From: Candidatus Omnitrophota bacterium
Lineage (GTDB): Bacteria > Omnitrophota > Gorgyraeia > Zapsychrales > Zapsychraceae
NCBI GenBank assembly: GCA_016212005.1
Contig: JACRHP010000052.1
Span: forward strand, 1 to 62,323
DNA length: 62,323 nt
Direction of reading: 5' to 3'
Notes under the pieces: generated by a model
The model's database searches: none
The model's input: the letters and a program-made list of their open reading frames with translations, nothing else
What the model was told of the DNA's origin: nothing
Translations under genes and position numbers: made by a program
Part shown: one piece after another, positions 3,609 to 20,214 of the stretch
Position numbering within the stretch: the stretch's first letter is position 1
Layout of the letters: each line of letters starts with the position of its first letter

Positions 3609-5954
3609 ATGAAAATTCTTGTCTTTACAACGCTTTTCCCCAACAGCCGGATGCCGCACCATGGGCTTTTTATCAAGGCGCGCGTGGCCGCCCTCTCCAA
3701 AAACAACGAAGTGCGGGTCGTCGCGCCGGTGCCGTTTTTCCCGCCCTGGAATATCAATCCCAGGTGGTTTCTGTTCAGCCAAATACCCGTGGAAGAAGAG
3801 ATCGACGGCATTAAAGTTTATCATCCCCGGTATCTGGTTACTCCCAAGATCGGCCGCGCGCTCTACGGATTTCTGATGTATTTCAGCCTGTACGGCTTCA
3901 TCAAAAATCTACGCCGGTCATTTGATTTTGATCTGATCGACGCGCATTTCTTGTATCCGGACGGGGTGGCCGCCGTTTTACTCGGCCGCCGGCTGCGCAA
4001 AAAAACGATTTTAAACGCGCGGGGGACGGACCTCAACTGGTACCCGCAATTTCCGGTCATCCGCGCCCAGATCCGTTCGGCCCTGGAAAAAGCCGACGCG
4101 GTGACCGTCGTTACGGAAACTCTTCAGGAAAAAACCATCGAACTGGGCATCGACCGCGGCAAGGTCGCCGTCATCCCCAACGGCGTCGATACCGGCATGT
4201 TTTGCTTCAGACCGAAGGACGAAGCCAAACGGACGCTGGGCCTTCCTGACAATCGCCGCGTTATCCTTGCCGTCGGCCATCTGCTGGAAGCCAAAGGATT
4301 TCATTTTCTGATAGAAGCGTTGCGCCATGTCCGCCGGCAGGACATGGACCTCGTTATCATCGGTGAAGGGGAATATAAAGAAAAGTTACTGCAATTGGCC
4401 GCGGAATATCACCTGCAGGGACGCGTCAAGTTCCCGGGGGAAAGGCCGCAAGGCGAATTGGCCCTCTGGTACGCGGCCGCCGAGGTCTTTTGCCTGACCA
4501 GCCTGCGCGAAGGCCGGCCCAATGTCGTCCTGGAGGCCATGGCCTGCGGCACGCCGATCGTTTCTATGAACAAATGGGGGCTGTCACGGATCGTTGATCT
4601 GGACAAAGGGATCCTGCTCGACAGTTACGAACCGGCAGGCATCGCCCGCGCCATTGATGAAACGCTACAGCGGCACTGGGACCGCCGGGCCATCAGCGGC
4701 TCGATGAAAGAACATACCTGGGCCAGGACCGCGGAGCAGGTGGACCAACTTATGACATCGGTCATGGCGCGAAAGGATATCCTGTTTTTTTCTTCCGACG
4801 ACTGGAACAGCGGCCTGAAGACGAGCAAATACCATCTCTCCACGCGCCTCGCCCGCCAGAACCGGGTTTTCTTCATCAATTCCTTGAGTCTAAGGGCGCC
4901 GACCTTCTCAAAACGGGACGTTAATAAAATCCTGGCCAAATTGAAAGGATATTTTCGCGGCCTGCAAAAAGTTAGAGAAAATTTATATGTATACACACCG
5001 TTACTGATTCCATTTCAAAAGTTCGCGTTCATCCGCTGGCTCAATGAACGGTTTCTCCTGTGGCAATTCCGGGTTATGATCCGCCGGTATCAAATGCGGG
5101 ATCCCGCCATCTGGACGTTCCTGCCGAACACGGTCGACCTTGTGCGCAAATTACCGAAAAAATGCCTGATCTATTACAGCGTCGACGACATGAGCGCCTT
5201 TAAAGGCGTACCGCGGGAGACGGTCCGCCGGCAAGATGAAGAGCTGACAAAAGAGGCGGACCTGACGTTTTCCGTATCGGAGGAATTGTTCAACAGGAAG
5301 CGGCTGTTGAACCCCAACTCATTTTATTCCCCGCACGGCGTTGATTTCGACCTGTTCAACCGGGCCAATACCAACGGCGCCGTCAAAAAACCGGAAGATT
5401 TGGCCGGAATCCCGGAGCCGATCATCGGGTTCTACGGGCTGATCTCCGGCGACTGGGTCGATTACCGGCTGATGGAATATCTGGCCCAACAGCGGCCGCG
5501 ATGGTCATTTGTTCTCATCGGCAAGATCGACCGCAGGGAAGGCGAAACGCTCCCGCGGGCAAACAATATCCATTATCTGCCCGTAAAACCCTATGAAGAA
5601 CTCTACCGTTACAGTAAATTCTTTAACGTGGCGGTCCTGCCGTTTAATATCAATCCGCTCACGACGCACTCGCATCCTTTGAAGATCCTCGAATACCTCT
5701 CCGCCGGCAGGCCGGTTGTTTGCGTCGCTATCCCGGAGGCAAAAAAATACGCGCAAGTCATCACGGTCGCCTCCGACTACAAAGACTTCCTGGACAAGAT
5801 TGAAAATTACTTGAGTAACGATAACCCCGGGGCGAAAGAATCCCGCGTTAACTTCGCCTCGCGGCATTCCTGGGACAAACGGTTTGATGAGATACAAGAG
5901 ATTATTAGTCGTCATATGCGTCCTGATGCTGCTGGCGCTCGTCGTACGGCCTAA
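3609..5954 (+). CDS. tandem (two-domain) GT4/GT-B glycosyltransferase fusion
   Basis: First half MKILVFTTLFPN...PNGVDTGMF...SLREGRPNVVLEAMACG; second half restarts at RKDILFFSSDDWNSGLKTSKYHLSTRLA...PHGVDFDLF...HPLKILEYLSAGRPVV (TuaH-like). Confidence 0.85.
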   Translation: MKILVFTTLFPNSRMPHHGLFIKARVAALSKNNEVRVVAPVPFFPPWNINPRWFLFSQIPVEEEIDGIKVYHPRYLVTPKIGRALYGFLMYFSLYGFIKNLRRSFDFDLIDAHFLYPDGVAAVLLGRRLRKKTILNARGTDLNWYPQFPVIRAQIRSALEKADAVTVVTETLQEKTIELGIDRGKVAVIPNGVDTGMFCFRPKDEAKRTLGLPDNRRVILAVGHLLEAKGFHFLIEALRHVRRQDMDLVIIGEGEYKEKLLQLAAEYHLQGRVKFPGERPQGELALWYAAAEVFCLTSLREGRPNVVLEAMACGTPIVSMNKWGLSRIVDLDKGILLDSYEPAGIARAIDETLQRHWDRRAISGSMKEHTWARTAEQVDQLMTSVMARKDILFFSSDDWNSGLKTSKYHLSTRLARQNRVFFINSLSLRAPTFSKRDVNKILAKLKGYFRGLQKVRENLYVYTPLLIPFQKFAFIRWLNERFLLWQFRVMIRRYQMRDPAIWTFLPNTVDLVRKLPKKCLIYYSVDDMSAFKGVPRETVRRQDEELTKEADLTFSVSEELFNRKRLLNPNSFYSPHGVDFDLFNRANTNGAVKKPEDLAGIPEPIIGFYGLISGDWVDYRLMEYLAQQRPRWSFVLIGKIDRREGETLPRANNIHYLPVKPYEELYRYSKFFNVAVLPFNINPLTTHSHPLKILEYLSAGRPVVCVAIPEAKKYAQVITVASDYKDFLDKIENYLSNDNPGAKESRVNFASRHSWDKRFDEIQEIISRHMRPDAAGARRTA

Positions 5955-8229
5955 AAATGCCGTGCTGGGGGGCGCGCCGGCGAAGGGGACACAAAAGCCC
6001 GCTTCGATCGCCATCGACGCGACCCAGGATGGGCCCGTATTCGGCGACCCTGAAGGGCTCCAGCGCGTTCAAAAGCTGGAAAGCCAGCTGCACCAGTTAA
6101 AAATCCGCGAGGACCATCCGCGGATGTTTATTACAAAAGAGAACATCCCGGAGATCCGGAAAAAACTCACCGCTTTTAATCCGAATTGGCAGGAGATATT
6201 GAAAAAGGCGGACTCCGGCGACCTCATCAACGCGGCTTTCGTTTACGCGGTCCTGGAAGATTCGGACCCGATGGCCGGACGACTGGCGTTAAGCACTGTT
6301 AAAAAAATACTTTTTGAAAAAAAGCCGGACATCAATAAAAATTGGGCGCAGGAAAAAGACGCGGCCGTGATGGCCTTGGCCTTTGATTGGGTCTATAATG
6401 GGCTCACCGAAAACGAGCGCGAACAACTGGTCCAAAAGCTCGCTCGTCTCAACCGTATCGATGAACGAGCCAAAAAGATCCGTTCCGGATACAAAGAAAT
6501 GCTTGAGACCTTCCATCGGGAAGAATGGGTATTCAATTCCTGGCGGGCGTGGCCGGAAATCGCCCTGGCCCATCACGTGCCGGACGCAGAATTTAATTAC
6601 AAAGCCCGCTGGGACCACACTTGGTACTACGGCGATGCCGCCCGGATGTACGCCTACGCGGCGGACGGCACGCCGTTCGAAGGTTATTACATGGGAGCCG
6701 ACGGCTGCGACTGGTTTCTCGCGCTCAAAAGCGCCACAGGTATCAACCTCATTGACGACCCGCAAATCGGCTGGTGCCGCAACGCTGCGTATTACGTGCT
6801 GTACCGGCTCGATTTCGGCCTGGGTCGAGAAATTTTGCATAAGGGCGCCTTTATCGGTAATGGCGGAATTCTTTCGTACTCGAAAGGGATCTCTACCTGG
6901 AAATTTATGGAATTCCTTGGGCGCACCATGGGATTGGCTTCCGACAACCCTTACTGCAAGTGGATTATTAATAATATATCCAAAGATGTATCTTCCTGGA
7001 TTATGACAACTACCGGATACGCCGGGCTTGAAGAACTGGAAAATATCGCGAATACGATATATGATCACCCGCTGCAACAGGCCCAAAATCCGCAGACGGC
7101 ATCGTATGAAGAGTTACCTTACGCGCGCTTTTTCCCGGGCGGCAAAGAAGCGGTCATGCGCACCAGTTTCCGTCCGGAAAGTACCTGCGTTGGATTTACG
7201 GCCAAAAACGCCTATACCATGACCAGTCACAGCGATTTTGACGTTAATACATTTATGATCTATAAAAAAGGAAATTTAGCGCCGGACTCGGGAGTATACG
7301 ACGCCTACCAAGGACAACACAATTATTTGAACTATCAGAAAAATACTACCGCCCATAACGATATCCTGATCATCGATCCGGCAAAACCTGATGATCCCCG
7401 CAAGCTTTCCAGAGCCGTTGATCCCGGAGGAGTGGAACTGGTCAGCAAACGGACGTTCGGCGCCGTGAACAACTGGGGATTCAAAGACGCCTTTCTACAC
7501 GACGCGCGGGCTCACTGGACGCAAATCCTCGATTTTAAAACGACCAAAGATTATGACTACATCATTGGTGAGGCCGCTAAAGCTTATTCCAGCCGGTTAA
7601 ACGAATTTATCCGGCATCTGGTTTTCATCCGCAAAGGTCCTACGGACAACGCTTATATTATTGTTTTTGATCGCATTGAAACCAAAAGCGGGAATTTCAT
7701 CAAGAAGTGGCTCTTGCACTTAGTGAGCGAACCACAGCTCAACGGCAAGCTTCTGCACGCCAAGATCCCGGGCCATTACGAGATATTCGACGGTGATTTC
7801 CTTGTTGCCACAAATGTGTTCAATACGGCAAAATTGTACAATAAGACCCTTTTACCAAAGCACAGGACGATCGCCAAAATCGGTGGGGATGGATTTGAGT
7901 TTTGGATGGAAGGCTCCAGACCGCGAAATATCGGCATCTCGAAAGAAGTCAAAGAATATATTGAGAAAAATACCGGCGGGCCGTGGCAGGAGGTCGGCAC
8001 GTGGCGCGTGGAGGTCACGGCGCTGGATAAAAAAGAACGCGATTATTTCTTGAATGTGCTCTACGCTGCCGATATAAAGGATACATTAGACCCTGAAAAT
8101 ATCTCCATGCGCGAGGACGACAAGAGCGTGGAAGTATTGATCAGGGACCAGGAACTCGGTACCGTCAGCGTCACCATGCCCAAGACAGGGAAACCGGCGG
8201 TAAAGGTAATGTTTGAAAAAAATAAATAA
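5887..8229 (+). CDS. secreted heparinase II/III or alginate-lyase-like polysaccharide lyase
   Basis: Signal peptide at N-terminus; TFHREEWVFNSWRAWPEIALAHH, GTPFEGYYMG, MTSHSDFDVNTFMIYKKGNLAPDSGVYDAY; paralog of the C-terminal half of the ORF at 15745. Confidence 0.75.
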   Translation: MRYKRLLVVICVLMLLALVVRPKNAVLGGAPAKGTQKPASIAIDATQDGPVFGDPEGLQRVQKLESQLHQLKIREDHPRMFITKENIPEIRKKLTAFNPNWQEILKKADSGDLINAAFVYAVLEDSDPMAGRLALSTVKKILFEKKPDINKNWAQEKDAAVMALAFDWVYNGLTENEREQLVQKLARLNRIDERAKKIRSGYKEMLETFHREEWVFNSWRAWPEIALAHHVPDAEFNYKARWDHTWYYGDAARMYAYAADGTPFEGYYMGADGCDWFLALKSATGINLIDDPQIGWCRNAAYYVLYRLDFGLGREILHKGAFIGNGGILSYSKGISTWKFMEFLGRTMGLASDNPYCKWIINNISKDVSSWIMTTTGYAGLEELENIANTIYDHPLQQAQNPQTASYEELPYARFFPGGKEAVMRTSFRPESTCVGFTAKNAYTMTSHSDFDVNTFMIYKKGNLAPDSGVYDAYQGQHNYLNYQKNTTAHNDILIIDPAKPDDPRKLSRAVDPGGVELVSKRTFGAVNNWGFKDAFLHDARAHWTQILDFKTTKDYDYIIGEAAKAYSSRLNEFIRHLVFIRKGPTDNAYIIVFDRIETKSGNFIKKWLLHLVSEPQLNGKLLHAKIPGHYEIFDGDFLVATNVFNTAKLYNKTLLPKHRTIAKIGGDGFEFWMEGSRPRNIGISKEVKEYIEKNTGGPWQEVGTWRVEVTALDKKERDYFLNVLYAADIKDTLDPENISMREDDKSVEVLIRDQELGTVSVTMPKTGKPAVKVMFEKNK

Positions 8230-10006: not shown

Positions 10007-10723
10007 ATGAAGGTACCCGAGTTAAACTTCTCCATACAAAAACGGCTGTTAAAATGCTTGGCTGGCAAACTGGGCCATTATTACCTGGTTGGCGGGACTG
10101 CTTTGTCGCTTTATTATTTCCAACACAGAGAATCGCATGATCTGGATTTTTTTACGAAATCTTTCTCCGCGAAAGAAATCACTGAAGCCATTGGTTATCT
10201 TCAAGAAAAACACAACATAAAAACGGAATTGGTTGCTCAAAAAATGGGGAACAAATTCGCCAAAATCATGACGTATATGTTGACGGACAAAAAGGGAAAG
10301 GCCTGCAAAATCGATTTCGTGGAAGATTTTGTGGAGCTCGTTCAACCGATGAGGGAAATTGACGGCATCCGCGTTGTTTCTCTGGAAGATATCTACTTAA
10401 GGAAGCTTTATGCCGTGGCCGGCCATACAGCGTCACAAAACGATGTCGGCCAACATGTCACCATCGGAGGCCGCCAGGAAGCCAAAGATTTTTATGACCT
10501 CTATTGCCTCTCCAGTATCTCAACGCCTCTGTCCAAATTTGTCGCGCGCTACGGGACGGCAACCGTCAAGGAAGGCCTGGTCCGCTGGTATCGCACGTTT
10601 GACCGGATGGTCATAAAAACGGGCCTGCTGGATTTGGTCACGGAGAAAACCGTTGATTTCCGCCGGATGGACCAGCATTTTAAGAATGAAGTGGACGCCC
10701 TTTTGTCAGAGGAAGTCAGATGA
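10007..10723 (+). CDS. AbiEii/AbiGii-type nucleotidyltransferase toxin
   Basis: LVGGTALSLYYFQHRESHDLDFFTKSF motif; coupled to HTH ORF. Confidence 0.8.
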   Translation: MKVPELNFSIQKRLLKCLAGKLGHYYLVGGTALSLYYFQHRESHDLDFFTKSFSAKEITEAIGYLQEKHNIKTELVAQKMGNKFAKIMTYMLTDKKGKACKIDFVEDFVELVQPMREIDGIRVVSLEDIYLRKLYAVAGHTASQNDVGQHVTIGGRQEAKDFYDLYCLSSISTPLSKFVARYGTATVKEGLVRWYRTFDRMVIKTGLLDLVTEKTVDFRRMDQHFKNEVDALLSEEVR

Positions 10724-15140: not shown

Positions 15141-15187
15141 CCACAACCGACTCATCTGAAACCGGTTGTGGAGATTTGCTTTTTCGG
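15141..15187 (+). terminator. hairpin terminator candidate
   Basis: CCACAACCG (15141-15149) / CGGTTGTGG (15163-15171) followed by a T-rich stretch. Confidence 0.5.
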
Positions 15188-15204
15188 AATTTATAGTTTA
15201 TACT
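15176..15204 (+). promoter_or_regulatory. candidate promoter upstream of riboswitch 1
   Basis: TTGCTT (15176-15181), 17 nt, TATACT (15199-15204); -35 is weak. Confidence 0.4.
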
Positions 15205-15239
15205 TCCTTTTGGATTTGATTCAACCGCTCTTTTGGACG

Positions 15240-15386
15240 ATAAAGGCAAACCCATCGTAAGGTGGGGACGCAAAGCTATCCCGACATTTCCTTCAGAAAA
15301 TATTTAGAAGGAAGTCGGGACCCCGACTGAGGCGCTGCCGAACGTCGGGGAAGGGTCCTTGAACAGGACAGCCTGGCCACCGAAAC
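15240..15386 (+). ncRNA. GEMM-I / cyclic-di-GMP-I riboswitch, copy 1, with extra hairpins
   Basis: GGCAAACCCATCGTAAGGTGGGGACGCAAAGCTA conserved core and 3' AGGACAGCCTGGCCACCGAAA matching copy 2. Confidence 0.8.
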
Positions 15387-15416
15387 CAAAGTAAAATTAA
15401 AAGCACGTATAAAGTG

Positions 15417-15447
15417 GCCTGTCCGGCAGAGTGGACAGGCATTTTTT
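15417..15447 (+). terminator. intrinsic terminator (riboswitch 1 expression platform)
   Basis: GCCTGTCC-GGCAGAGT-GGACAGGC followed by ATTTTTT. Confidence 0.8.
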
Positions 15448-15461
15448 ATGTGCGCGGCGAC

Positions 15462-15503
15462 TGCGCCCACTCTTACGAAAGCTAGAGTGGGCGCATTATT
15501 TTT
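15462..15503 (+). terminator. second intrinsic terminator
   Basis: TGCGCCCACTCT / AGAGTGGGCGCA perfect 12-bp stem, then TTATTTTT. Confidence 0.8.
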
Positions 15504-15651
15504 GAGTGAAAAATGAAAAGACGAACCAGAACAATTGACCTTAAAAACGAATTTGACGCAATGGATTCTCAAATGTTGAGCCCGTTGATCCAAATAACGG
15601 ACTCTTTTTATAGTCACATTTCGGAAAAAACCGAAATGGAAAATTCCCTTC

Positions 15652-15740
15652 AAAAAGGCAAACCCATCGCAAGATGGGGACGCAAAGCTATAGGACCCTG
15701 CACCATGCGGTACAGGGCAGCCTGGCTGCTGAAAGGAGTC
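15652..15740 (+). ncRNA. GEMM-I / cyclic-di-GMP-I riboswitch, copy 2
   Basis: GGCAAACCCATCGCAAGATGGGGACGCAAAGCTA, stem CCCTG/CAGGG, GCAGCCTGGCTGCTGAAAGG; ends at the RBS of the ORF at 15745. Confidence 0.88.
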
Positions 15741-15744
15741 TGCG

Positions 15745-18700
15745 ATGAACCGGATAAACACTCTTCGCAGTAAGATTGGTATTGTCGTTTGTTCGTTTGT
15801 GACTGCTTTGGTGATGGTCAACACTGCCCGTGCCGCCGATCTCTATGTAGAAACAGAAAGCGCGGCGACGTTAACGGCCCCGATGCAAATCGCTTCCGAT
15901 GCCACCGCCTCCGGTGGAAAATTTATTTATATCCCTAATGGCAATGGTGTGTCCTATAGCGTCCCGGGAAAAGGGACAGCTTCATATACGATCAATATCC
16001 CGCAAAACGGCACCTATGCCCTCTGGGGCAGAATTATTGCGCAATACCCAAATGATGATTCATTTTTTATTCAAGTGGATAGTGGAACCAACTACACCTG
16101 GCCCACGCCGGCTGGAAGCACCTGGCATTGGGCACGGGTGAAGGACATGTTTCATCATAGTTATGTAACGCTTTCACTTAGTGCAGGCGTACATACGATT
16201 AGCGTCAAGCACCGTGAAGACGGGGCAAAGATCGATAAATTATTTTTAACGGATGATATGGCTTTTGTGCCGAGCGGTTTAGGGGGAGACTCTGCTTCTG
16301 CCGAAGTTTGCGGCAACGGGACATTGGAGGGAACTGAACAATGCGATGATGGCAATGCCGTCAGTGGGGATGGTTGTACCGCATCCTGTACCCTTGAGAA
16401 GTGCGGGGATACGGTTGTGCAGAGCGGTTTGGGAGAAATCTGCGATGAGAACACGCAAAGTTGCACGACCTCCAATGGATACCGCGGTACGCAAACCTGC
16501 AATGCTCAATGTTCCGCCTTCAGTGCCTGTGTGAGCACCGAGTCCTGCGGGGACGGCACTGTCAACGGCAGTGAGCAATGCGACGACGCAAATACGCGCG
16601 GGGGAGATGGGTGCTCATCGGTGTGTTTGGCCGAAAGCGCACAAACCAATGATCCGGCGATATGGATTGAAACGGAAAACGCGGACAGCGTTGCCGCACC
16701 GATGGAAATTGTTGCGGACACCACGGCTTCCGGAGGGAAATTCGTCTATGTTCCCAATGGAAAGGGCACTTCCCTTAGCGTTCCGGCACCGGGCATGGCG
16801 AGTTATACAGTCACCATCCCCAAAGACGGTAACTATGTTTTATGGGGCAAGGTCATTGCGCAATATTCTAACGATGATTCCTTTTTTGTTCAGGTGGACA
16901 GCGGGACCAATTATACATGGAATACGCCGGATGGGAACACATGGCATTGGGCAAGAGTCAAGGATATGTTCCAAGGCAACATAACATTCCCATTGAGTGC
17001 CGGCGTTCATACAATCAAAGTGAAGCAACGGGAAGACGGCACTAAAATCGACCAGTTGTTTTTAACGGACGACCTGAACAGGATACCGGAGGATAATACC
17101 CCTCCACCGGCTCCGATAGTCACGGCCGCATGCGGCAACGGTGTCGTAGAATCACCCGAAGGCTGTGATGACGGTAATCTGAGTTCCGGGGATGGATGCT
17201 CAACGACCTGTACGCTGGAATCTTGCGGGGACGGCATCGTCCAGACCGGCGAGCAATGCGACGACCACAATACGATTGCCGGCGATGGATGCTCGGAAAC
17301 CTGCAAAACAGAATTCTGCGGGGACGGTATCCTGCAGACCGGCTTGGGAGAACAATGCGACAAAGCCGGCACGAGCCTGGTGTCCTGCACGACAACGACA
17401 GGATATACGGGCACGAAAACCTGCTCTGCCACCTGCACGTTTGGAACATGTGTTTCCAACGAAACTTGCGGGGACGGCATCGTCCAGTCCGTTGAGGAAT
17501 GTGACGATCATAACACGGTCAACCTTGATGGATGTTCAGCTCAATGCCTGCTGGAAAAAACAAAGGCCTCGCTCGATCAGGAAGGCATGGCGCGGGTCCA
17601 GGCATTGGAGGCGAAATTAAATAACATGACGATTGTCCCGACCCATCCGAGGATTTTCCTGAACCAGGAAAACCTCGCGGAGTTGAGATCAAAAACGGGA
17701 CAGGCGGCCTGGAACGCGGTTCTTTCCAAGGCCACCCAGAGCGACCTGATCAGCTCGGCATTGGGATATCTGATGCTGGAGCAGAGCAATCCCGGGCAGG
17801 CGCTTATTTATGCCAATAACGTATTTAATAACATCAACAATGCCACCTATGTTAACTGGTGCGCCACGGGGCAGTATGATCTAACACCTCGTATCAACGT
17901 GGCGATAGCCTCGTTGGCCTTTGACTGGGCCTATAACGGCCTGACGGAGGCCCAACGGAGTATCATCATCAATAAGCTGGCTGCCGCGGCCGATATCGTG
18001 GCCAAAAAAAAGGAAATCGATGATGGGGTGGTTCCCCAAATTGGTTCTTCCGCCTGCTATAAGAATGCGACCAAAGGCGAGACATTCCACCGGGAAGAAT
18101 GGGCATTCTACGCTTTTGAGGTTTGGCCGGAGATCGCGTTGGCCGGACATCATCCGGATGCCGAAGCGGTGTATAAAACCCGCTGGGATTATAGGTGGTA
18201 TTGGGGCGATGCCGCCCGGATGGAAGCCTATGTCAATGATGGGACTCCCTTTGAAGGGTATTATTTCGGCAATGACGGTGTATCGTGGTTCCTGCCGCTC
18301 AAGACCGCCACAGGCATCAACCTTGTTGACGGATCGGATTCGACCTGGAACAGGGACGCGGCTTATTACATGTTGTACCGTTTTGATATCGCCAACAGCC
18401 GGGAGACCATGCATAAGGGAGTAGCGACATCCAACCTGGCAACAAATTCGTTCCTGAAATCTGTTACCGATACCTGGAAATTACGTGAACATATTTCCAG
18501 AACGTTTTCCATCGGAGCGAAGAAAGACCCTTATCTGCAATGGTTTATCAACAACAAAATCGACCGGTTCTCTTCATGGTTAATGACCAACAATTATTTC
18601 GGCAGCGTCACGGCACTGTATGATGTATCAAAATTGCTGTTTTACGATGCGGCCGCCCCACAGAAAGACCCGACAACGGCGACCTATGCGGAATTGCCGT

Positions 18701-20214
18701 TCGACCGTCATTTCGCGGGAGGCAATGAAGCCTACATGAGGACCGGATGGGGCCCCAAAGCGACCATTGTGGGTTTTCGCAGCAAACCGGCCTTTACCAT
18801 GACCTCTCACAGTGACTTCGACGTCAATACCTTCGTCATCCATCGCGACGGCGGGCCGCTGGCGCCGGATTCCGGTGTCTATGACGCCTATGAACAGCAA
18901 AGAAATTATATGCAATATCAAAAAAATACGATTGCCCATAACAATCTACTAATTATCAACCCCGCAGATCCAGATGGCCCCAAAAAATTATCACTTGCGC
19001 CGGATCCGGGTGGTGTTGATTTACGTTCCACAAGAACTTTTTCAGCGCCAAATTCATTTTTACATTCTGTATTTGTAGAAAACGATCCGACACCGAACTG
19101 GGCGGATATTGCCAAGTTCGAAACCCAGCCAGGATACGCCTATCTGGTCGGCGACGGGAAGGAAGCCTATGGCAGCCGTTTGAGCAAATACGACCGCAAC
19201 CTGGCTTTCTTGCGTAAAGGCAATGACGAGGGGTATTTGATTATCTTCGACCGCGTCACCGCCGCCAGTTCAACGTATAAGAAAAAATGGCTGCTTCACA
19301 CCGTTAACGAACCTGTCTTAAACGGTAAAATCATCGGCACGCAAGTGCCTGGACATATCGAGACCTACGATGGTGATTCTATAACGACGACCAGCTATGA
19401 AGGGACTTCGAAGCTGCACGCGAAAGTGCTCCTGCCGGCCGGCCACAGTATCCGGCGTATCGGTGGAGAAATACTCCATACCAACGGAACTGTCAATGTC
19501 GACTACGGCAGTGATAAAGTGGTCGGCAATGGAACGACGTTCGCCCAAGTCATGGTGGGGCATTATTTCCACGTCAATAAGGACAAGACATCGACTGTGC
19601 CATCCGGTTATGATGGCTTTTACGATTGGTATCAAATTAAAAGCGTGGAGGATGCCGCACACCTGACGTTGAGCCGGGCATATACAAAGACAGCTCTCAA
19701 CGAACCCTACACGATCAATCAAGGTTATCAGTACTGGGTCGATGGAACAACACCCAAAAACATCTTCGTAACGGGCTCCACGAAAGCCACAGTAGACAGC
19801 GCATTGACCGGCAAGGCCTGGCAGCACATGGGGCAGGGAAGGATCGAACTGATGCCGCCCGACGGCAATAAAACTGATTATTTCCTTGTGGCTATGTCCA
19901 TTGGTGATATCAATTCAATCATGCCGGCGAACACATCACTCGTGGAAAACAAAACCGGCGACGCGATGGAAGGCGTTCTCATCGACAATAAGGTCGTTAT
20001 GTTTGGGCAGACAGGGAATGCGATCTCCCAGACATCGTTCAAAGTTAACTACAATGGCCCGGTGGATTTTATGATTGCGGATTTAAATCCCGGCCAAACA
20101 TACAGCGTACGCAAGGAGGGGGCCTTACTTTTTACCAGGACGGCTTCCAGCCAGGGGACCATCAGTTTCAGTGATAACCCCGGCTCAAGCGGCGCGACAT
20201 ATTCGCTCTTATAA
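15745..20214 (+). CDS. large secreted polysaccharide lyase: two CBM-like and two DUF4215 Cys-rich regions plus heparinase/alginate-lyase-like catalytic region
   Basis: Signal peptide; repeated ADLYVETESAATLTAPMQI / AIWIETENADSVAAPMEI modules; CGNGTLEGTEQCDDGN repeats; TFHREEWAFYAFEVWPEIALAGH lyase region paralogous to ORF 5887-8229. Confidence 0.8.
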   Translation: MNRINTLRSKIGIVVCSFVTALVMVNTARAADLYVETESAATLTAPMQIASDATASGGKFIYIPNGNGVSYSVPGKGTASYTINIPQNGTYALWGRIIAQYPNDDSFFIQVDSGTNYTWPTPAGSTWHWARVKDMFHHSYVTLSLSAGVHTISVKHREDGAKIDKLFLTDDMAFVPSGLGGDSASAEVCGNGTLEGTEQCDDGNAVSGDGCTASCTLEKCGDTVVQSGLGEICDENTQSCTTSNGYRGTQTCNAQCSAFSACVSTESCGDGTVNGSEQCDDANTRGGDGCSSVCLAESAQTNDPAIWIETENADSVAAPMEIVADTTASGGKFVYVPNGKGTSLSVPAPGMASYTVTIPKDGNYVLWGKVIAQYSNDDSFFVQVDSGTNYTWNTPDGNTWHWARVKDMFQGNITFPLSAGVHTIKVKQREDGTKIDQLFLTDDLNRIPEDNTPPPAPIVTAACGNGVVESPEGCDDGNLSSGDGCSTTCTLESCGDGIVQTGEQCDDHNTIAGDGCSETCKTEFCGDGILQTGLGEQCDKAGTSLVSCTTTTGYTGTKTCSATCTFGTCVSNETCGDGIVQSVEECDDHNTVNLDGCSAQCLLEKTKASLDQEGMARVQALEAKLNNMTIVPTHPRIFLNQENLAELRSKTGQAAWNAVLSKATQSDLISSALGYLMLEQSNPGQALIYANNVFNNINNATYVNWCATGQYDLTPRINVAIASLAFDWAYNGLTEAQRSIIINKLAAAADIVAKKKEIDDGVVPQIGSSACYKNATKGETFHREEWAFYAFEVWPEIALAGHHPDAEAVYKTRWDYRWYWGDAARMEAYVNDGTPFEGYYFGNDGVSWFLPLKTATGINLVDGSDSTWNRDAAYYMLYRFDIANSRETMHKGVATSNLATNSFLKSVTDTWKLREHISRTFSIGAKKDPYLQWFINNKIDRFSSWLMTNNYFGSVTALYDVSKLLFYDAAAPQKDPTTATYAELPFDRHFAGGNEAYMRTGWGPKATIVGFRSKPAFTMTSHSDFDVNTFVIHRDGGPLAPDSGVYDAYEQQRNYMQYQKNTIAHNNLLIINPADPDGPKKLSLAPDPGGVDLRSTRTFSAPNSFLHSVFVENDPTPNWADIAKFETQPGYAYLVGDGKEAYGSRLSKYDRNLAFLRKGNDEGYLIIFDRVTAASSTYKKKWLLHTVNEPVLNGKIIGTQVPGHIETYDGDSITTTSYEGTSKLHAKVLLPAGHSIRRIGGEILHTNGTVNVDYGSDKVVGNGTTFAQVMVGHYFHVNKDKTSTVPSGYDGFYDWYQIKSVEDAAHLTLSRAYTKTALNEPYTINQGYQYWVDGTTPKNIFVTGSTKATVDSALTGKAWQHMGQGRIELMPPDGNKTDYFLVAMSIGDINSIMPANTSLVENKTGDAMEGVLIDNKVVMFGQTGNAISQTSFKVNYNGPVDFMIADLNPGQTYSVRKEGALLFTRTASSQGTISFSDNPGSSGATYSLL

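Follow-up and report, generated by a model that had tools for sequence, protein, structure and literature searches.

Two c-di-GMP-I riboswitches, the first with a two-hairpin insert in P3, in a predicted two-level leader of a heparinase II/III-like gene

The window analyzed here is a whole stretch of 62,323 nucleotides from a Candidatus Omnitrophota bacterium; the lyase gene and the features of its leader all lie on the + strand. The gene (15745-20214) encodes a protein of 1489 amino acids whose N terminus resembles a signal peptide; it also has DUF4215 repeats, and its C-terminal half is heparinase II/III-like. Pfam gives matches to HepII_C, Hepar_II_III_C and DUF4215, and heparinase II (2fuq) is matched with an E value of 8e-25 over 983-1197 plus the C-terminal domain, with "IAHN" and a His of the active-site region retained. 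By this similarity of the catalytic domain, the protein is predicted to be a heparinase II/III-like polysaccharide lyase. Upstream of it are genes for glycosyltransferases, two polysaccharide deacetylases and an exosortase with its DUF3485 partner; downstream are a sugar transferase, PEP-CTERM proteins, a GAF histidine kinase and a sigma-54 regulator. The neighborhood fits a PEP-CTERM/exosortase EPS locus, and the view of the first-pass annotation, that the target is a lyase beside EPS machinery, agrees with a heparinase II/III-like protein adjoining exosortase/EPS genes. A second heparinase-like protein, with 48% identity to the catalytic half of the lyase, is also encoded upstream (5884-8229). 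No c-di-GMP-I match was found upstream of this second gene, and copies related to its product occur in G003:C40 and G022:C39. AbiEi/AbiEii-like genes (354-1798 and 10007-10723) are also present in the EPS region. Among 54 relatives, no orthologue of the lyase with the leader was found, and lyase matches in genome contigs looked mostly limited to the DUF4215 region. Elsewhere in the genome, c-di-GMP-I switches lie ahead of minor-pilin genes (C92) and of the gene for a giant protein of >1500 amino acids with PKD domains (C86). The latter is a second tandem pair (L166, G000:C86:4712-4991), with a promoter only before its first aptamer.

Two c-di-GMP-I aptamers had been placed before the lyase gene at 15240-15386 and 15652-15740. 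Both are confirmed, with limits refined to 15234-15390 (aptamer 1) and 15647-15734 (aptamer 2). The covariance search with RF01051, which had been suggested as a check, gives 46.7 bits for aptamer 1 and 62.4 bits for aptamer 2, both above the gathering score of 35 bits. Aptamer 2, which has no insert, is also matched by RF03167 (GGC variant) at 15648-15734 with 62.3 bits (E 2.5e-12, above gathering). The RF03167 consensus has G in GACGC[A/G]AAG, where aptamer 2 has A and the match line is blank (GACGCAAAG against GACGCGAAG in the consensus). Because the two families tie and A stands at the consensus G, ordinary c-di-GMP-I is the better label.

The RF01051 match for aptamer 1 (E 5e-6) covers 15235-15342, and its 3′ end is wrong, since it falls within the loop of H2, the second hairpin of an insert in P3. 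Aptamer 1 consists, in order, of GCAAAGCUA, the two-hairpin insert, the second half of P3 (AGGGUCC...GGACAGCC) and the 3′ end (GGCCACCGAA). R2, a model constructed with the window sequence left out, matches this 157-nt form end to end at 15234-15390 with 104.2 bits, against about 47 bits for RF01051. Because of the R2 alignment and the sequences of relatives, 15342 is rejected as the 3′ end and 15390 is favored; the limits first proposed for aptamer 1 were thus better than those of Rfam. The 3′ half ending at 15342 (GGCGCUGCCGAA), a conceivable alternative for the 3′ strand, turned out to be the H2 loop. This loop type, TGAG..GAAC, recurs in dispersed copies of the repeat described below. The core of aptamer 1 is retained: P2 with its GNRA loop (GUAA), P3, GGCAAAC / GACGCAAAGC and the 3′ ligand-contact C. 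GCCACC lies at 15376-15381, and the C at 15380 is presumably the equivalent of C92 in the Vc2 structure. An uninterrupted P3, which is typical of RF01051 although membership is possible without it, is absent. Because the same insert occurs in 19 relatives, the split P3 is treated as a structural variant of c-di-GMP-I. Over 38 nt, from AAAGGC to CTAT, aptamers 1 and 2 are 95% identical.

Both aptamers have G at RF01051 position 11, which we take, from the Vc2 structure, to be the selectivity position (the equivalent of G20). In GEMM-I riboswitches, G versus A at this position selects c-di-GMP over cAMP-GMP (PMC9481103), and the A of the cAMP-GMP-selective type is found in neither aptamer. The ligand of the aptamers is among the things that we infer for this leader, together with the polarity, the efficiency of each step and the biological purpose.

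Aptamer 1 is followed by two strong terminators, as the first-pass annotation had described (15417-15447 and 15462-15503). T1 with its 5′ arm spans 15414-15447 (stem 15417-15440, -17.3 kcal/mol), and ATTTTTT follows the stem. T2 (15462-15503) is a 12-bp perfect inverted repeat (stem 15462-15495, -24.8 kcal/mol) followed by the U-rich tail TTATTTTT (U-tract UUAUUUUU); its loop of 10 nt is beyond the range of a simple terminator scan. The 3′ strand of aptamer 1, GGACAG(CCUG)GCCAC (15366-15380), is a candidate antiterminator. Between it and the T1 5′ arm (GUGGCCUGUCC, 15414-15424), 11 Watson-Crick pairs are possible; of 5000 random sequences with matched composition, 10 did as well. In the nascent RNA, the GCCAC/GUGGC part of this pairing has a probability of 0.97-0.99 until the 3′ arm of T1 emerges. 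At equilibrium, T1 is more stable than the antiterminator by about 7 kcal/mol, so that the first switch would have to be kinetic. In Cd1, the 3′ strand of the aptamer itself contributes to a transient antiterminator, and c-di-GMP favors the terminator (PMC9262584). For T2, folding of the leader gave no rival pairing of sufficient strength to disrupt the stem, and T2 looks unregulated. The transcriptional gating proposed earlier is thus supported by the complementarity of the T1 arm to the aptamer 3′ strand, but it does not extend to T2, which has no visible link to the aptamer. In the Bacillus riboswitch Bc1, a second terminator masks the effect of the ligand on the first (PMC11218506); by analogy, masking of T1 by T2 would be a real worry here. 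Terminators follow 43 of the 56 script-classified c-di-GMP-I aptamers of the order and, by eye, most of the rest as well, so that a translational aptamer 2 would be an exception in the order. In several loci of the genus (L101, L095, L084, L106 and others), a second palindrome comes after the riboswitch terminator and overlaps its U-tract.

The spacer between the aptamers (15340-15640) gave Rfam matches at chance level only (E 0.25 and 0.79). An ORF of about 86 amino acids, seen by eye, may run from near 15514 across aptamer 2, with no clear RBS. The SD of the lyase gene, AAAGGAG, lies at 15732-15738, six bases ahead of the ATG at 15745. It was rightly recognized before that aptamer 2 ends on this RBS, since the SD lies inside the aptamer 2 fold. 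RNA folding gives the segment 15723-15742, with the 3′ strand of aptamer 2 and the SD, two alternative pairings, one in P1/P3 of the aptamer and the other in a helix that we call P0. The 5′ strand of P0 (15598-15616), a putative anti-SD and anti-aptamer strand, forms 19 bp with 15723-15742 with one bulged base (duplex -23.4 kcal/mol), and this strength was reached by 0 of 1000 dinucleotide shuffles. In read-through RNA, P0 captures the ligand-contact strand of aptamer 2 and the SD together. When the leader of aptamer 2 is folded in isolation, the SD forms the 3′ side of P1, a stem worth only 2.1 kcal/mol in RNA that starts at 15621. Read-through RNA thus hides the SD in either state, by P0 without the aptamer 2 fold and by P1 with it. 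The aptamers, terminators and SD of the original description stand; it omitted this SD-masking helix and the insert in aptamer 1.

Whether the two aptamers belong to one leader was judged from their promoters. A promoter profile (approximately TTGGCA, 18 nt, TGNTATACTT) was derived from 45 further c-di-GMP-I loci in the order, with the window sites excluded. A site at 15175-15204 (TTGC.. / TATACT at 15199, expected start near 15211) scores 22.0 bits, the best among the 124,550 positions of both strands of the window. Before aptamer 2, there is a weak promoter-like site at 15585-15614 (TTGATC-18-TATAGT, 15609), with 2.1 bits held out, a score matched by 11% of shuffled stretches. With a profile that included the site itself it had scored 10.3 bits; it was then given up as a real local promoter and kept as part of a rival explanation. 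Five tandems of the order, spaced 142-390 nt, have a promoter before the first aptamer and none before the second, and in two pairs spaced 780 and 1005 nt both aptamers have their own promoter. The spacing in the window is 412 nt, and its promoter pattern is like that of the close tandems. The claim that the aptamers stand in series is supported by this comparison, because a strong promoter is found before aptamer 1 alone, as in close tandems, and one leader shared by both aptamers from the promoter at 15175-15204 is the better reading.

The other reading is that there are two independent modules. Aptamer 1, T1 and T2 would then produce a short RNA with hardly any read-through, and the lyase mRNA would start from the local promoter at 15585-15614 under the control of aptamer 2 alone, where c-di-GMP would stabilize P1, hide the SD and turn the gene OFF. 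Since the 5′ strand of P0 lies just upstream of the local start, P0 would silence the read-through RNA, for which the phage T4 lysozyme mRNA is a precedent. The strength of both terminators and a P0 helix far beyond chance are in line with this arrangement, and so are the local site, which fits 9 of 12 consensus positions at the expected distance, and the modest P1 in RNA from 15621, which a ligand could control. However, the local promoter is at background when held out, and in close tandems of the order no promoter precedes the second aptamer. We consider two modules rather unlikely.

Since the SD is buried either way in read-through RNA, ligand control at translation may be weak or even positive, and its sign would depend on whether the RNA contains 15598-15616. 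Soft-constraint folding favors P0 over the aptamer 2 fold by 3.3-5.8 kcal/mol in read-through RNA. Aptamer 2 is predicted from these folds to act translationally, with either polarity. The translational gating claimed earlier holds insofar as the SD lies within the aptamer fold; its sign is not readable from sequence, given P0 and P1. Aptamer 2 could even be an ON switch, in which P0 breaks the aptamer and buries the SD without ligand, and c-di-GMP pays the 3-6 kcal/mol needed for the aptamer fold, where the SD is paired in P1, a much weaker helix. In that case, the lyase would be produced at high c-di-GMP alongside matrix synthesis, as a trimming enzyme. Such an energy gap is reachable by ligand binding, P0 occupies the ligand-contact strand, and the gene is located among EPS synthesis genes. 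Nevertheless, the SD is still paired in the aptamer fold and aptamer 1 indicates the opposite direction, so that an ON switch seems improbable to us.

The insert of aptamer 1 (15279-15351, about 73 nt) consists of two adjacent hairpins that split P3, H1 (15279-15320) and H2 (15321-15350), with the stems UCCCGAC...GUCGGGA CCCCGAC...GUCGGGG. The order was searched with the pattern GRCRCAAARYYATCCC, and the matches were read individually. The same insert occurs at the same point of P3 in 20 riboswitches read directly, from nine genera and four families of this one order. Across 286 genomes sampled from the phylum, strong split-form matches are confined to the order. In an alignment of 16 sequences, the insert-form structure pairs in 96.4% of cells, against a shuffled mean of 90.7%, and sliding the pairing partners abolishes the support. 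Eleven pairs of this alignment have changed on both sides, and 6 of these 11 lie in the two inserted hairpins. The insert also shows presence and absence: at four riboswitch loci that are orthologous between species of the genus, the flanks align on both sides, and the insert is present in one species and missing in another. The breakpoint is about 34 bases past the start of GGYAAAC in most filled/empty comparisons. Such pairs would reflect either repeated gain or repeated precise loss of the insert.

The hairpin TCCCGAC..GTCGGGA has 17 copies in its own genome and 0 with the pattern read backwards, and the full two-hairpin unit is also found outside riboswitches, for example in tRNA D-arm-like sequence and intergenic DNA. 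The insert is a dispersed repeat. Copies in tRNA D-arm-like sequence (GCTGGCGTAGCT^CAGTTGG) are L161 (G005:C11), L160 (G001:C68), L186 (G021:C64) and L163 (G000:C69). Their flanks, AGCT^CAG, are similar to the site in the riboswitches (AGCTA^CAGGG), a possible reason for the shared target. Another copy (L164, G000:C34:5060-5091) lies, by eye, within an apparent ATP synthase chain gene. At G000:C4:9198-9391, a c-di-GMP-I aptamer has a still longer P3 insert with several consecutive hairpins, and the next ORFs in the same direction encode an RNA methyltransferase and DAHP synthase. REP-type Y1 transposases, as movers of the repeat, numbered 0 in the partial own genome and some in relatives.

We tentatively propose, with a confidence just short of even, that the dispersed two-hairpin repeat has repeatedly entered or left P3 of c-di-GMP-I riboswitches at one position, and that the filled form, including aptamer 1, is a working split-P3 subclass, maintained by compensatory changes and misread or weakly scored by Rfam. 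RF01051 misplaces the 3′ end of split-P3 aptamers, and surveys may therefore undercount them. That aptamer 1 is instead a dead riboswitch followed by plain terminators, its binding abolished by an insert inside P3 near the tetraloop receptor, is improbable, for although binding by Cd1 relies on the tetraloop contact (PMC9262584), the split form keeps all core residues with compensatory changes in four families, and the window copy has an intact P2, P3 and GNRA loop.

Taken together, there is about an even chance that this is a single leader with two c-di-GMP-I switches in series, a Cd1-type transcriptional OFF switch followed by translational gating. One transcript from the promoter at 15175-15204 would carry both riboswitches ahead of the lyase gene. 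Without c-di-GMP, 15366-15380 would pair with the 5′ arm of T1 and delay the terminator; with c-di-GMP, this strand would be held in the split-P3 aptamer 1 and T1 would form. T2 would trim the RNA that passes T1. The escaping RNA would be gated again at translation, where the SD either serves as the 3′ side of P1 in aptamer 2 or is captured by P0. The net effect would be that the lyase is kept low, and c-di-GMP most likely reduces it further. The stronger statement of the first-pass annotation, that high c-di-GMP keeps the lyase off, was itself inferential and goes further than the sequence does, since T2 is strong without a link to the aptamer and the SD is hidden in both states of aptamer 2.

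The remark that tandem GEMM riboswitches are known elsewhere is correct: 347 doublets and 12 triplets of c-di-GMP-I riboswitches have been counted (PMC9481103), one example being Bc3-5 of Bacillus thuringiensis (PMC4759541), and tandems with platforms at different levels have been discussed as a type (PMC12452182). Like the known tandems, the arrangement here would have at least two aptamers in one leader of one gene; it differs from them in that the predicted outputs differ (terminator, then SD) and P3 of aptamer 1 is split. It is like the Cd1 OFF switch (PMC9262584) in that the antiterminator is built from the aptamer 3′ strand and the terminator 5′ arm, and terminator and aptamer can coexist; here, there are in addition a P3 insert and a second terminator, and the switch is a predicted one. 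The dual-terminator riboswitch Bc1 (PMC11218506) also has two close intrinsic terminators after a c-di-GMP-I aptamer, plus translational regulation, but it has one aptamer, whereas here a second aptamer would bear the translational step. Tandem c-di-GMP-I switches and dual terminators are already known. The literature searched contained no paper linking a c-di-GMP riboswitch with a polysaccharide lyase, and no precedent for a recurrent, site-specific P3 insert, for such repeats within riboswitches or for tetraloop-receptor inserts. With P0 as a clear alternative helix, the leader lends itself to tests of how one second messenger could control a gene at two levels. The two-hairpin P3 insert is the part of the finding worth following up. 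The natural filled/empty pairs at four orthologous loci of one genus could reveal how a mobile-looking hairpin alters ligand binding and switching. Dispersed palindromic repeats are known as REP/BIME in enterobacteria and as Rickettsia palindromic elements. Like these, the repeat described here is a short hairpin unit scattered in the genome, in RNA and coding sequences; unlike them, it has two adjacent GTCGGGA-type hairpins and recurs at one site in P3 of c-di-GMP-I riboswitches.
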